Positions 9,229 to 60,907 of a DNA stretch of 64,000 nt are shown here, one piece after another. The translations under genes were made by a program, and so were the position numbers. This DNA comes from Stenotrophomonas sp. SAU14A_NAIMI4_8 (lineage in GTDB: Bacteria > Pseudomonadota > Gammaproteobacteria > Xanthomonadales > Xanthomonadaceae): assembly GCF_003086695.1 (NCBI RefSeq), contig NZ_CP025999.1, positions 546,820 to 610,819 of the forward strand. The letters are read 5' to 3'. Every line of letters starts with the position of its first letter. Within the stretch, counting starts at the first letter, position 1. Below the pieces are notes generated by a model. The model did not search any database, was not told where the DNA came from, and saw nothing but the letters and a program-made list of their open reading frames with translations.

Positions 9229-11310
9229 ATGGCACAGCGGCAGTGGTGGGTGGTGGGCGTGGTGGTGGTGACCGCAGCGGCGTTGGCCGCCACCTGGTGG
9301 CCTGATCGGGCCACCGAGGTATCCGCACCCGCTGGGCCGCAACCCACGCCCCTGGCCTGGACGGCGCAGATCGAAACGCTGGCCGGCGATGGCCATCCCG
9401 GCAATCGTGATGGCGCGGCCGCGCAGGCGCGCTTCGCTGATCCCTACGCAGTGGTGCGCACGGCGCAGGGCGCGGTGTACTTCACCGACGCCGGCGACAA
9501 CAACCGTATCCGCCGCTGGTGGCCCGATGGCCGCGTGCAGACCGTGGCCGGGCAGGGCGAGGGGCGCGTGGACGGCCCGGCGCTGCAGGCCAGCTTCCAC
9601 ACGCCTTCGGGCATTGCCGCCGATGCGCAGGGCAACCTGTACGTGGCCGACACCGGCAACCACGCGATCCGGCGCATTTCTGCCGACGGGCAGGTGACCA
9701 CGCTGGCCGGCGGCGAGCAGGGGTATGCCGATGGACCCGCCGCACAGGCGCGCTTCGATGGGCCGATGGGCATCGCCGTGGATGCGCAGGGCCAGGTGTT
9801 CGTGGCCGATACCTGGAACGACCGCATCCGCGTGATCGGCACCGATGGCCAGGTGCGGACCCTGGCCGGTGGCGACCGCCCGGGGTTCACCGATGCGATC
9901 GGCGGCGAGGCGCGGTTCGATACCCCGGTGGCGCTGGCCTTCGATGCGCATGGCGCGCTGCTGGTGGCCGATCTGTTCAACAACGCAGTGCGCCGCGTGG
10001 GCGGCGACGGCACGGTCAGTACGGTGGTGAGCAGCGGCGGGGTGATGAACGCCCCGCTGTCGTTGGCCACGACCCACGATGGCGTGCTGTACGTAGGCGA
10101 CCTCGATGGGCGCGTGCTGCAGATCACCCCGCAGGGCCACCAGATCGCGCTGCTGGGTAACGACCGCCTGCCCCGCCTGGCGCGCCCCAGTGGTCTGGCC
10201 GTGGATGCAGATGGCAGCGTGCTGGTGGCCGACTCGACTGCCTACCGCCTGCATCGCCTGCGCCCGCTGCCGGTGGGCGAGCTTCCTGCACCGGCCCTGG
10301 TGGGTCCGGCCGCCGATGCCGGGTTGCCCGACACGGGCGGACGCTGGCCGTTGGCACCGCAGGACGGCTGGCACGAAGTGGTGGGCACGCTGGGCGAGGT
10401 ACGTGGCAACTTCAAGGGTGAGAGCCGCCATCACCTGCACGGCGGTTTCGATGTGCGCGGCGATGTGGGGCAGACCGTGCTGGCCATTGCCGAGGGCAAG
10501 ATCAGCAGCCCGATCGCCGCCTGGAGCCTGGGCGGGCAGGGCGAAGGCCTGGCGGTGGATCGCCTGAAGTACATCCACATGCGCGTGGGCCGCACGCCGC
10601 GCGGTGAACCCTTCGATGCACGCTGGCAGCCGTTGTACGCCGACGATGGAACGCTGGAGCGCATCCGCGTGCGTCGTGGCACGCGCATCCACGTGGGGGA
10701 TCGGCTGGGCAGCATCAACAGCCAGGCGCACGTGCACCTGGCGCTGGGCACCGGTGGTTTCGAGACCAATGCGGTGGCACTGGGCTTCCACAACTACGCC
10801 GACCACTTCGCCCCGCGCATCACCGACGTGGCCCTGCTGGACGACAACGACCAACCCATGGCGCCGGGCAGCGATGGCGTGGTGATGGTGGCGCGGCAGG
10901 GGCGTGGCGTGCAGATCGTGGTGGAGGCGTGGGACCAGGTGGACAACAACCTGCCACGCCGCCGGCTGGGGCCGTACCAGGTGGGTTACCAGATCCTGGA
11001 TGGCAACGGCCAGGCGTTGCAGGGCTACGAGCAGCCGCGCTGGAACATCGTGTTCAACCGCATGCCGCCGCAGAACCTGGCGGCGAAGGTGGCCTATGCG
11101 CCGGACAGCGGCATTACCGTGCACGGCAGCGCGGTTACCCGCTTCCGCTACCTGGTGACCAACACCGTGCGCGATGGCCTGATGGAAACCGGGCGCTGGC
11201 AGCCGGCGGCGCTGCCGCCGGGCGAGTACATCGTGCGTGCCAGTGCGCGTGATTACAGCGGCAACGAAGGCGTTGGCCGGCGCGAGGTCAGAGTGCGGCT
11301 GTTGCCGTAG
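9229..11310 (+). CDS. NHL-repeat propeller fused to an M23/LytM-like domain
   Basis: A 693-residue protein anchored by one N-terminal helix (residues 5-23). Residues 45-345 hold about six NHL repeats with a GIAxDAQGNLYVADTGNHxIRR pattern, forming a beta-propeller. Residues 385-530 look like an M23 (LytM) metallopeptidase: HLHGGFDVRGDVGQTVLAIAEGKI carries the HxxxD zinc pair and HVHLALG the HxH motif. The C-terminal 150 residues are beta-rich and of unknown fold. It could be a periplasmic peptidoglycan-binding or cleaving protein. The M23 assignment is from motif spacing only. Confidence 0.75.
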   Translation: MAQRQWWVVGVVVVTAAALAATWWPDRATEVSAPAGPQPTPLAWTAQIETLAGDGHPGNRDGAAAQARFADPYAVVRTAQGAVYFTDAGDNNRIRRWWPDGRVQTVAGQGEGRVDGPALQASFHTPSGIAADAQGNLYVADTGNHAIRRISADGQVTTLAGGEQGYADGPAAQARFDGPMGIAVDAQGQVFVADTWNDRIRVIGTDGQVRTLAGGDRPGFTDAIGGEARFDTPVALAFDAHGALLVADLFNNAVRRVGGDGTVSTVVSSGGVMNAPLSLATTHDGVLYVGDLDGRVLQITPQGHQIALLGNDRLPRLARPSGLAVDADGSVLVADSTAYRLHRLRPLPVGELPAPALVGPAADAGLPDTGGRWPLAPQDGWHEVVGTLGEVRGNFKGESRHHLHGGFDVRGDVGQTVLAIAEGKISSPIAAWSLGGQGEGLAVDRLKYIHMRVGRTPRGEPFDARWQPLYADDGTLERIRVRRGTRIHVGDRLGSINSQAHVHLALGTGGFETNAVALGFHNYADHFAPRITDVALLDDNDQPMAPGSDGVVMVARQGRGVQIVVEAWDQVDNNLPRRRLGPYQVGYQILDGNGQALQGYEQPRWNIVFNRMPPQNLAAKVAYAPDSGITVHGSAVTRFRYLVTNTVRDGLMETGRWQPAALPPGEYIVRASARDYSGNEGVGRREVRVRLLP

Positions 11311-11692
11311 CGGCCGGCGCGCCGCAGCGTTCGCGTTCGGCGTCCATGTCTTCCAGCGGGCGCACTTCGATGCTGCCGAAGCGTGCCCAGGGGAAGTCGC
11401 GGGCGATGGCCATGGCCTCGTCGCGGTTGCGCGCCACGATCAGGTTGAACCCGGCCAGCAGTTCGCGGGTTTCGGCGAAGGGGCCATCAAGCACGCGGCT
11501 GTGGCCGTCGCGCACGCGCAGGGTCTGTGCGGTGTCCACCGGCTGCAGTTTCTGTGCGGCCAGCAGGGTGCCTTCGGCCTGCAGCTGGTCGGCGTGGGCC
11601 AGGCAGTCGCGCATCAGCGCGTTGAACTCTTCGCTGGGCAGGGCCTGCAGCAGGGCGGGCTCAATGTAGATCAGGAGCAGGTACTGCTGCAT
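11288..11692 (-). CDS. YCII/DGPF-domain protein
   Basis: A 134-residue YCII-related (PF03795) protein. It starts MQQYLLLIYIEP, with a helical middle and the hallmark VLDGPFAETRELLAGFNLI at residues 68-86, then ARDFPWARFGSIEVRPL. DGPF proteins are the standard genomic partners of ECF42 sigma factors, and one lies 2.1 kb away. Their biochemical function is unknown. The 3' end overlaps the convergent NHL/LytM gene by 23 bp. No ECF42-like promoter is visible upstream of this copy. Confidence 0.88.
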   Translation of the reverse strand: MQQYLLLIYIEPALLQALPSEEFNALMRDCLAHADQLQAEGTLLAAQKLQPVDTAQTLRVRDGHSRVLDGPFAETRELLAGFNLIVARNRDEAMAIARDFPWARFGSIEVRPLEDMDAERERCGAPAATATAAL

Positions 11693-11844
11693 GGGGTGGT
11701 CCTGGCGTGGCGGGCGGGGTGACCATGATGGCGCAGGTCTGCGCGGAATCATGCTGCAGCGCGAGAAGCGCGCCTTCGGCGGGGAGCGGCGAACGGCGGA
11801 GCCCCTCCGTGGTGGGGCATTTTTTGGGGAGCGCTGGCTGGGCA

Positions 11845-11940
11845 GGTGGGGGTGGGGCCGCGGGACACGCCGTGAATCCATCCATGGAGGCTCGTAGGCG
11901 CCATCCATGGCGCCTGCGGTCCCGCGGCCCCACCCCCACC
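11845..11940 (-). repeat. Branched stem-loop element, copy A
   Basis: A 22-bp perfect stem (GGTGGGGGTGGGGCCGCGGG arm) enclosing a loop that, on the minus strand, carries GCGCCATGGATGGCGC and then GGATTCACGGCGT. The loop pattern matches copies at 12109, 20012 and 54179. It is inverted relative to copy B within the large palindrome. Confidence 0.85.
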
Positions 11941-12108
11941 GGCCTCGGACAGGTTCACGCGGCTGACCCACCACGGGAAATCACAAAGCAAAAGCGAGAA
12001 GCGGGTCGCTTCGCTCCAGGGCCGGCACCGCGCGCAGACCGCCTTTGCTTTTGCTTCTGCCTTTTTCTCTTGATCTACCGTGGTGGGTCAGTCGCGTGAA
12101 CCTGTCTG

Positions 12109-12212
12109 GGGCCGGGCGGGTGGGGTTGGCGGGGTATCCGCGCCATGGATGGCGCGGCTAAGCCTCCACGGACGGATTCACGGCGTCCCCGCCAGCCCCA
12201 CCCGCCCGGCCC
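12109..12212 (+). repeat. Branched stem-loop element, copy B
   Basis: A 26-bp stem with one G-U pair around a loop with two sub-hairpins: CGCGCCATGGATGGCGCG and GGACGGATTCACGGCGTCC. The sub-hairpin sequences and the AAGCCT linker recur in copies C and D even though the long stem sequence differs, which suggests a conserved structure. Confidence 0.85.
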
Positions 12213-12326
12213 TCTCGCAGAAAGCCCAGCTTTCCGCGACCAAGCACCCCACCACGGAGGGGCTCCGCCGTTCGCCGACCCCCGCCGAAGGCGCGCGCTC
12301 CGCGGGAAAAATAATTTCCAGGAACC

Positions 12327-12396: not shown

Positions 12397-12810
12397 ATGA
12401 AAGTGATGGTGATCGTCAAAGCCAGCGCCGATTCCGAAGCCGGGCGCATGCCCAGCGCAGCGGAACTGACCGCCATGGGCGCCTACAACGAACAACTGGT
12501 CGCCGCCGGCATCATGCTCGCTGGCGAAGGCCTGCACGCCACCGCCCGCGGCCATCGCATTCAGTTCGGTGAGGGCGCACCGGCCGTGCAGTCCGGCCCG
12601 TTCGGCCCGGCCGAGCACCAGATCGCCGGCTTCTGGCTGTGGGAAGTGCGGTCGCTGGACGAAGCCATCGAGTGGGCGCGGCGCGCACCGTTCAAGCCCG
12701 GTGATGCCCTGGAACTGCGCCCGCTGATCACCGCCGAGGACTTCGGCGAGGCTTTCACCCCCGAATTACAGCAACAGGAACAGCGTCTGCGGAACCAGAT
12801 CGACGCTTGA
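12397..12810 (+). CDS. YCII-domain protein, first gene of the ECF42 locus
   Basis: A 137-residue YCII-related protein: MKVMVIVKA start, MGAYNEQLVAAGIMLAGEGL, VQSGPFGPAEHQIAGFWLWEV in the DGPF position, and a basic/amphipathic tail ending LQQQEQRLRNQIDA. The DGPF motif has become SGPF. It is followed by two VOC proteins and an ECF42 sigma factor on the same strand with gaps of 69, 33 and 44 bp, so one transcript is likely. Function of the family is not established. Confidence 0.88.
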   Translation: MKVMVIVKASADSEAGRMPSAAELTAMGAYNEQLVAAGIMLAGEGLHATARGHRIQFGEGAPAVQSGPFGPAEHQIAGFWLWEVRSLDEAIEWARRAPFKPGDALELRPLITAEDFGEAFTPELQQQEQRLRNQIDA

Positions 12811-20011: not shown

Positions 20012-20113
20012 GGCGGGGTGGGTCCGGTTGCGGGGGCGTGAGCCGCATGGATGCGGCGACCGAGCTTACATGGACGTACTTGCAGCGTCCCCCGCGACCG
20101 GACCCACCCCGCC
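20012..20113 (+). repeat. Branched stem-loop element, copy C
   Basis: A 25-bp stem (GGCGGGGTGGGTCCGGTTGC / GCGACCGGACCCACCCCGCC, one G-U pair) enclosing GCCGCATGGATGCGGC and GGACGTACTTGCAGCGTCC. The lead-in CTGTCGAAGGCGGGGTGGG is identical to that of copy D at 54 kb. Confidence 0.88.
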
Positions 20114-54178: not shown

Positions 54179-54274
54179 GGGGTGGGTCCGGTTGCGGGGG
54201 TGTCCGCAGCATGGATGCCGCGGCCAAGCCTACAGGGACGTATTCACGGCGTCCCCCGCAACCGGACCCACCCC
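54179..54274 (+). repeat. Branched stem-loop element, copy D
   Basis: A perfect 22-bp stem (GGGGTGGGTCCGGTTGCGGG arm) around CGCAGCATGGATGCCGCG and GGACGTATTCACGGCGTCC. The lead-in CTGTCGAAGGCGGGG matches copy C at 20 kb. Found between dinB and the convergent metallo-beta-lactamase gene. The 269-bp gap 54097-54365 otherwise holds nothing I can name. Confidence 0.88.
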
Positions 54275-60508: not shown

Positions 60509-60635
60509 CGGGGGAACTCCGGGTGCCGCGCACGCCCGCGCGGCGAAGGGGAGGAGCCACGAGGGCAGGCACGCGCCGATGCCGCAGCAGGCGCCGCGGT
60601 CATCCAGCGCCATGCCCACCGCATCGCGACCTGAG

Positions 60636-60812
60636 GCTTCCGGGCCGGTCTCCGGGCTTGCCGCCTGATGGCACCTGGGCCATCGTCCAGGCGCCTTCCC
60701 GTGCGCGCGGCACAGTGGCGTATTGCCTGGAACTGACGTGCTTACCGTTGCGGGGGCAGCGCCGGCCTGGCGTGTTGCCACGCGTCACCGGCTTCCCGTT
60801 TCAACCTGCCAG
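60636..60812 (-). ncRNA. Cobalamin riboswitch of btuB
   Basis: The minus strand shows the class hallmarks in order: GGGAAGCCGGTG near 60795, GCCCCCGCAACGGTAAGC near 60750, the B12 box GCCACTG at 60713-60719, CGGGAAGGC near 60695, and GGCAAGCCCGGAGACCGGCC near 60650. Binding of adenosylcobalamin should shut off btuB. The leader continues about 130 bases to the ATG. Ends are approximate. Confidence 0.93.
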
Positions 60813-60907
60813 CCAAGGCCGCAGGTCACCTGGAAGTGCGCGCAGTCTAAGTCATTGCCTGGCGTGGGCGTTAGAGTAGTCGCCTCTCTGTGCTGGTGCC
60901 GGTACCC

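Follow-up and report, generated by a model that had tools for sequence, protein, structure and literature searches.

An inverted doublet of Y-shaped repeat units between divergent YCII genes of Stenotrophomonas, with hairpin loops that match the RsmA/CsrA binding rule

In the window, the whole 64,000-nt stretch of DNA that was analysed, two divergent genes for YCII-domain proteins are separated by a gap of 704 bp, which is mostly taken up by a palindrome (Table 1). Its outer arms enclose a first branched unit (A), a central hairpin and a second branched unit (B), which is unit A inverted and diverged. The outer arms are 96% complementary over 50 nt, with A·C and G·A as the mismatches. Branch A (11841-11866 / 11919-11944) and branch B (12109-12134 / 12187-12212) each form 25 of 26 pairs (96% complementary), and the mismatch is A·G in branch A and T·G on the + strand in branch B. 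The central arms form 34 of 39 pairs, and their mismatches are three wobble-type pairs (G·T or T·G on the + strand) besides one G·A and one A·C; within the stretch 11948-11976, 28 of 29 positions are paired and the sole mismatch is G·T. Aligned with its reverse complement, the full 529 bp gives a 73% match. An earlier note, made from the sequence of this stretch, had described a nested palindrome with inner repeats matching 28/29 and 25/26 and G-U mismatches on one strand. A base-by-base check agrees with these counts, and its outer arms were found where it had placed them.

Table 1. Features of the YCII gap and further Y-units, in window coordinates
Feature	Position	Strand	Detail
YCII-domain gene, flanking	11288..11692	-	PF03795, E 7.8e-19
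Left outer arm	11768..11817	.	type-2 outer module GGCGAACGGCGGAGCCCCTCCGTGGTGGGG
Unit A, Y-shaped hairpin	11841..11944	+	model R1 match G000:C1:558670-558753 +
Unit A mini-hairpin 1 loop	11880..11885	-	ATCCAT on +, AUGGAU on -
Unit A mini-hairpin 2 loop	11903..11908	-	ATCCAT on +, AUGGAU on -
Central hairpin	11945..12109	.	arms 11945-11983 / 12071-12109, middle part containing AAGCAAAAGC / GCTTTTGCTTTTGC runs
Unit B, inverted relative of unit A	12109..12212	-	model R1 match G000:C1:558938-559021 -
Unit B mini-hairpin 2 loop	12145..12150	+	AUGGAU
Unit B mini-hairpin 1 loop	12168..12173	+	ACGGAC
Right outer arm	12247..12296	.	48/50 pairs with left outer arm
YCII-domain gene, flanking, divergent from the other	12397..12810	+	PF03795, E 6.6e-15
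Further single Y-unit	20021-20104	-	G000:C1:566840-566923
Further single Y-unit	54185-54268	-	G000:C1:601004-601087

RNA folding of the region 11740-12320, which the earlier note had proposed, gave a minimum free energy of -440.5 kcal/mol, compared with a mean of -283.3 (sd 7.1) for shuffled sequences (z -22.1, with 0 of 100 shuffles as good). The minimum free energy structure is a cloverleaf, and in the centroid structure unit A is paired with unit B in a single long hairpin. The palindrome exists and greatly exceeds chance expectation, yet it is not the only one of its kind.

Each unit is a Y-shaped hairpin of about 100 bp, composed of a long stem, a three-way junction and two mini-hairpins. 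Comparison of the copies shows that, on the forward strand, mini-hairpin 1 is a 26-nt element of the form ACGCYGYRAA-NNC-loop-GNN-RGCY with a 5-nt bulge, located inside the outer stem; mini-hairpin 2 is 26 nt long with a 6-nt loop, and is followed by the second stem arm. The core of unit A (11867-11918) carries TCC on the + strand, and so presents GGA loops on the - strand, while that of unit B (12135-12186) has its GGA loops on the + strand. The observation in the earlier note that the two inner elements mirror each other, and have copies elsewhere, was confirmed: unit B is inverted unit A (I1 pair, 81% complementary over 64 nt), and a search of the genome with the whole element returned at least 105 matches from the 40 of 133 candidates that were scored. 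Its reading of the region as a repeat and a structured nucleic acid was right.

A covariance model built from 31 units found at least 117 matches in the genome, including 4 partial ones; the number is a lower bound because 150 of 7242 candidates were scored. Among these matches, 78 form 39 doublets in the order +/-, and none is in the order -/+. Only two same-strand (tandem) neighbour pairs lie within 1300 bp, a distance at which about 3.9 neighbours of any kind are expected by chance. The unit starts are 236-355 bp apart in 31 doublets and 478-1078 bp apart in the other 8. Some of the single units may be doublets that lost a partner. These data show that the palindrome of 530 bp consists of two inverted copies of a repeat that is dispersed between genes and has a unit of the YPAL/Ysr224 class.

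At least two types of outer module occur, and the two sides of a doublet sometimes carry different ones; modules similar to the left outer arm of the YCII gap flank other doublets (for example L101, L128 and L129). The doublet centres often contain other palindromes, SMAG-like GTAG repeats among them. In the outer and central arms of loci L101-L139 there are short runs such as (CAACGT)n, (GAGCCA)n and AAGCAAAAGC, whose repeat number differs among copies and whose complementary runs are often found on the opposite arm.

Gene context was assigned with a simple gene caller trained on the window. None of 76 loci lies inside a called gene. The 38 doublets considered, a three-unit locus (L233) being excluded, lie between convergent genes in 11 cases, co-directional genes in 20 and divergent genes in 7, the last class including the doublet of the window; siting at convergent gene ends, which had been expected, is thus not the rule. 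For single units between genes of the same direction, the GGA strand is co-directional with the genes in 13 and opposite in 7 (p 0.26), or 14 and 7 if one tandem locus is included (p 0.19). This orientation was dropped as a test of transcription, not being significant.

The YCII gene pair was followed through GTDB genomes, and both genes were present at 38 loci. The gap measures 711-815 bp at 8 of these (L024, L025, L028, L031, L033, L034, L037, L038), 435-437 bp at 2 (L036, L039) and 156-322 bp at 28. Among 17 gaps inspected, the 8 long ones carry the doublet, and the 2 of middle length carry one unit or a fusion, L039 looking like the fusion of units. Part of the outer arm is retained in the 209-bp gaps of L023 and L026. 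These two loci seem to have arisen by deletion between near-repeats located at the base of the stem, whereas L041 and L042 are too diverged for a junction to be read. The unit stems at this site consist of different modules in different species, each of them largely paired.

Some of these loci carry further repeats. In L028, L031 and L037 a palindromic insert of about 90 bp (GCCCGAGGC...TGCCGTGTGCGCAGGACAGCGCACACG) lies within mini-hairpin 2 of unit B, and a very similar insert is present in L160. A different palindromic insert lies in mini-hairpin 1 of unit B in L034. The inserts in L028, L031, L034 and L037 are repeats inserted into the loops of repeats. At eight further loci (L021, L022, L027, L029, L030, L032, L035, L040) the contig ends 182 to 974 bp upstream of the YCII gene, as expected for such repeats.

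To place the repeat more widely, the model was run on three sets of genomes, in which absences are not firm, 111 candidates having been scored per genome in the first set and 16 to 18 in the other two. Matches were found in 22 of 41 genomes (the host and 40 relatives), including three genomes from two other families; in 49 of 276 genomes of a gammaproteobacterial sample, corresponding to 43 of 215 genera; and in 23 of 249 genomes drawn across the phylum, all 23 belonging to the same class. Two genomes of another family (G030 and G040) hold 87 matches, with 10 +/- doublets, no -/+ doublet and 1 same-strand neighbour. In other Stenotrophomonas, 10 of 10 doublets, counted by locus, share the orientation; the one doublet of the class set has the opposite orientation.

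Two loci in genomes of other families contain features of a different kind. In L153, at about 1470-1615, a long-stemmed Y-unit lies in frame within an open frame of 1017 aa, which is dnaE2-like to judge from its letters. In L175 (2552-2805), a group I intron match scores above gathering, at 67.5 bits.

The stems were compared across the 31 units of the model, in which 96.2% of pair cells are paired and two-sided changes occur at 24 of 32 pairs. Of the 992 pair cells, 235 depart from the most frequent pair on both sides and 2 on a single side. The covariation score lies above all 500 shuffles and all slid versions; further pair types were no more numerous than in shuffles (44 compared with 43.3, with 214 of 500 as high). 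Drifting RNA helices usually pass via G·U intermediates, and wobble pairs are rare across the unit family. This pattern points to stem change mainly via exchange of whole units or copying of one arm from the other. Covariation was therefore dropped as proof of an RNA, given the 2 one-sided cells in 992 and the module differences at one orthologous site: the compensatory changes that the earlier note had looked to do exist, but exchange or arm-to-arm copying fits them equally well. Distinct 16-nt arms number 28 in 36 units and 16 in 17 units from other families, and 34 in 61 in the host genome. As there is almost one stem per copy in the other families, copying of the stems from the target site was also considered.

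The loops behave differently from the stems. A first count (71 units listed, 65 parsed, 61 above the score cut) was followed by a geometry scan blind to the loop letters, covering 155 units from four chosen locus sets (141 distinct, overlapping loci being counted twice). The loop reads NTCCNT, or ANGGAN on the other strand, in 149 of 155 units for mini-hairpin 1 and in 154 of 155 for mini-hairpin 2, and is closed by a C-G pair in 153 and 155, respectively. All four bases were seen at both N positions of each loop, and the opposite strand of such a loop reads C-ANGGAN-G. The six exceptions in mini-hairpin 1 are GTCACT (twice), ATCCTG, ATCCCC and TCCCTG (twice, perhaps out of register), and the one exception in mini-hairpin 2 is GCCCAT.

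Among 54 further units from other genomes (60 were fetched; 5 were lost at the stem cut or in parsing, and a duplicate was removed), mini-hairpin 1 conforms in all 54 and mini-hairpin 2 in 51; by eye, two of the three exceptions (L359 and L363) have a TCC loop shorter by one base, and the third (L331) is a misparse. In some of these units the stem of mini-hairpin 2 is an AT-rich run, with the loop and closing pair kept. Since most loci were retrieved by searches to which the loop letters are visible, this agreement is inflated. A fairer test, a pattern search without loop letters across the 276 genomes, gave 780 hits, of which 722 contain NTCCNT, compared with about 22 hits for the reversed pattern, so some of the 58 hits with other loops are chance. 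One genome, G258 (5.1 Mb in 2 contigs), contributes 468 of these hits, far more than any other, and 435 of those with NTCCNT; without it the counts are 312 and 287.

The letters that are fixed and free in these loops correspond to a known rule. High-affinity binding by Csr/Rsm proteins is described for the hexaloop ANGGAX sitting directly on its stem, with N and X looped out and variable; the closing pair is C-G in one solved RNA, and some natural sites have a shorter A-GGAX loop (PMC4005645). Both mini-hairpin loops of the Y-unit present ANGGAX directly on the stem when read on the GGA strand. Within one unit the two GGA triplets lie 20 nt apart, a distance that a single CsrA dimer could span. 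CsrA (PF02599) was present in 242 of the 276 genomes, comprising 48 of 49 with the repeat and 194 of 227 without it (Fisher p 0.015), a co-occurrence that was read by eye from the overlap of the two lists and is confounded by phylogeny and genome size. The sole repeat-bearing genome without a CsrA hit is G214. Among the literature matches listed, which cover few subscription journals, we found no paper that joins these repeats with CsrA or RsmA.

Mismatches in the stems distinguish the two strands. Read on the TCC strand, and omitting the known non-pairing column of mini-hairpin 2, A·C outnumbers G·T by 57 to 14 (p 2.7e-7), in addition to 144 other mismatches, and by 49 to 14 in distinct contexts (p 1.1e-5), which is an excess of G·U over A·C on the GGA strand; the copies being related, neither these counts nor those of the loops are independent. 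In the 54 further units there are 20 G·U and 8 A·C on the GGA strand (p 0.036). Since the model was built on the TCC strand, any bias from it would be expected to act in the opposite direction, favouring G·U on that strand. The statistics show a strand-specific selection on a single strand, RNA or ssDNA, or a strand-specific mutation bias from transcription. The earlier note had argued from retained wobble pairs to selection at the RNA level; the family-wide excess supports this in part, as it speaks for selection on a single strand, RNA or ssDNA, but the few G·U pairs of the locus are insufficient for it.

Our preferred reading is selection on the GGA strand as a single strand, with binding of its RNA by RsmA/CsrA as the most likely basis. 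RNA and RsmA/CsrA are preferred because the fixed and free positions of the loops match the CsrA rule. To judge from sequence comparison, it is somewhat more likely than not that the Y-units are binding sites of this protein. In the mechanism that we propose, a transcript reading through from a flanking gene or promoter would carry a unit in its GGA strand, which would bind an RsmA dimer via its two loops. Owing to the inversion of one unit relative to the other, a doublet would offer one candidate RsmA-binding Y-hairpin whichever strand is transcribed. The element could thus act as a landing pad or decoy for RsmA in a UTR or read-through RNA, where binding would alter the stability of the mRNA that carries it; dozens of copies together might titrate RsmA, and the element would spread as a REPIN-like non-autonomous mobile element.

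Paired changes in the stems beside a constant loop and closing pair count toward RsmA binding, as do the reported expression of Ysr224 as an sRNA and, weakly, the co-occurrence with CsrA. Against it count the TCC loops that the other unit presents in any doublet transcript, the folding of unit A against unit B in the centroid structure of the doublet RNA, and the occurrence of doublets in all gene contexts together with the lack of orientation among single units. Selection on ssDNA, or mutation biased toward one strand, could also explain the G·U excess.

The main rival is a hairpin of ssDNA transposition. Here the repeat would be a selfish REPIN-like element, the Y-hairpin of one strand being read by a Y1/HUH transposase, with the loops as recognition letters and no role as RNA. 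The single inverted orientation shared by 39 of 39 doublets of the host genome, by those of G030 and G040 (10 to 0) and by the 10 loci of other Stenotrophomonas speaks for such an element, as does the occurrence of the YCII gap in long, intermediate and short forms, and folding of one strand as ssDNA would likewise favour G·T over A·C. The genome also has 5 matches to Y1_Tnp (PF01797), but the Y-core pattern occurs at none of these loci (about 1.5 kb on each side), one of which has SMAG repeats. Linkage to a RAYT by neighbourhood is hence unsupported; a RAYT could act in trans. Transposition does not predict that, in both hairpins, the fixed letters as well as the two variable positions follow the CsrA rule. 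The presence of CsrA in 48 of 49 element-bearing genomes also counts against this reading, which we regard as less likely.

A hairpin that stabilises or terminates mRNA 3' ends through its stem alone, a role put forward for YPAL, with loops inherited and unused, would agree with the very stable fold, and YPAL possibly affects the stability of upstream transcripts (PMC2229807). It predicts conserved stems and free loops, the reverse of what is seen, and the doublet of the window lies between divergent genes, only 11 of 38 doublets being placed between convergent ones; we consider it improbable. A functionless local inverted duplication or recombination product, the fallback of the earlier note, could draw on the 73% self-match and on the deletion-like and fused loci (L023, L026, L039), but is very improbable, being already contradicted by the 39 doublets in one orientation, the element at the same site in several Stenotrophomonas species, the class-wide core and the strand-specific mismatch bias.

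More broadly, we suggest, tentatively, that the mobile YPAL/Ysr224 repeats found throughout the class are transposable pairs of RsmA/CsrA-binding hairpins, and that the inverted doublets of Stenotrophomonas form a dispersed genomic sponge that rewires Csr/Rsm regulation wherever a copy lands in a transcript. Palindromic intergenic repeats have mostly been treated as selfish DNA or as generic mRNA stabilisers. If the suggestion is true, a core present in 43 of 215 sampled gammaproteobacterial genera belongs to a network of global regulation, and Csr/Rsm targets can arise from mobile elements. This raises the question of what selects the loops of YPAL-type repeats, and the strand and meaning of Ysr224 may need revision.

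Because the core is that of YPAL/RU-2 and Ysr224, the family is a known one; what goes further than the portions of the cited sources that we consulted is its breadth and its doublet form, and an RsmA/CsrA signature, as read from the loops, would be a new addition to a YPAL/REPIN-like repeat. The printed YPAL/RU-2 sequence (PMC2759123, Table 1b) has the same core on its reverse strand, with mini-hairpin 1 of the same form, and both loops of the printed strand are ANGGAN (AAGGAT and ATGGAT). The core pattern begins at position 52 of the RU-2 reverse complement, where 9 of 16 pairs were counted, mini-hairpin 2 being one base off the fixed geometry. Like the repeat described here, YPAL is dispersed and mainly intergenic, with filled and empty sites reported, and a review table lists Yersinia sp. 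and Erwinia carotovora as hosts (PMC2229807), compared with the 43 genera found here. Both have a Y-core with two mini-hairpins within a longer palindrome. YPAL, however, consists of single elements of 168 bp with an outer sequence of their own, whereas the elements here are inverted doublets of about 530 bp with other stems and outer modules, and neither the length of about 168 bp nor the YPAL outer sequence was found. YPAL also has target-site duplications of 3-26 bp; from the short gaps at the YCII site no clean one could be read. The 2006 YPAL paper is said to describe insertion just downstream of stop codons; the doublets here, unlike YPAL, have no clear preference for gene 3' ends.

Rfam family RF02770 (Ysr224) is the best-scoring bacterial family for both units, with the same core letters (unit B 31.7 bits, E 2.4e-5; unit A 27.8 bits, E 3.1e-4), far below its gathering score of 70 bits. 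The Rfam consensus is the TCC strand, whereas the evidence here favours the GGA strand. Ysr224 is reported to be an expressed sRNA present in several copies in Yersinia (PMC9029176, PMC12112432), and is counted among the 20 most prevalent sRNAs (PMC9029176). Matches to miRNA and other low-scoring Rfam families, all below gathering, were taken as chance; this verdict does not extend to the tRNA and group I intron matches in loci of other genomes. Elsewhere in the window, a cobalamin riboswitch lies at 60626-60848 (-), at 97.3 bits.

REPINs consist of two inverted units in constant orientation, are intergenic, reach high copy number and are associated with a RAYT transposase. The doublets resemble them in their constant inverted orientation (39 +/- to 0 -/+), copy number and intergenic position, and SMAG in the SMAG-like GTAG repeats inside some doublet centres, but differ in that no Y-core pattern lies within about 1.5 kb of the Y1_Tnp genes. 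GTAG is not a constant end of the palindrome: it precedes mini-hairpin 2 in only some units, those in which this hairpin is CGTAGGCGCC..., and other units have TGGCC, TAGCC or CGGTC. The units are also three-way hairpins of about 100 bp, compared with 20-40 bp for REPs (PMC3733652).

The candidate RNA TwoAYGGAY, listed for human gut, gammaproteobacteria and Clostridiales (PMC2864571), has two AYGGAY hairpins according to its name. It was not among the Rfam matches obtained here, and in its row of that source the name carries no RF number. Several GGA motifs are shared with RsmX/RsmY/RsmZ, CsrB/CsrC and RsmU of Xanthomonas, although Rfam gave no match to RsmX/RsmY/RsmZ or CsrB/CsrC in the window at gathering, or in the element at E up to 10. 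RsmU derives from a 3'-UTR and binds RsmA; with all four GGA motifs changed, RsmA binding (as a smaller complex) and the overexpression phenotype remain (PMC7694677). These Rsm and Csr RNAs are encoded by single genes, whereas the Y-unit is a dispersed repeat.
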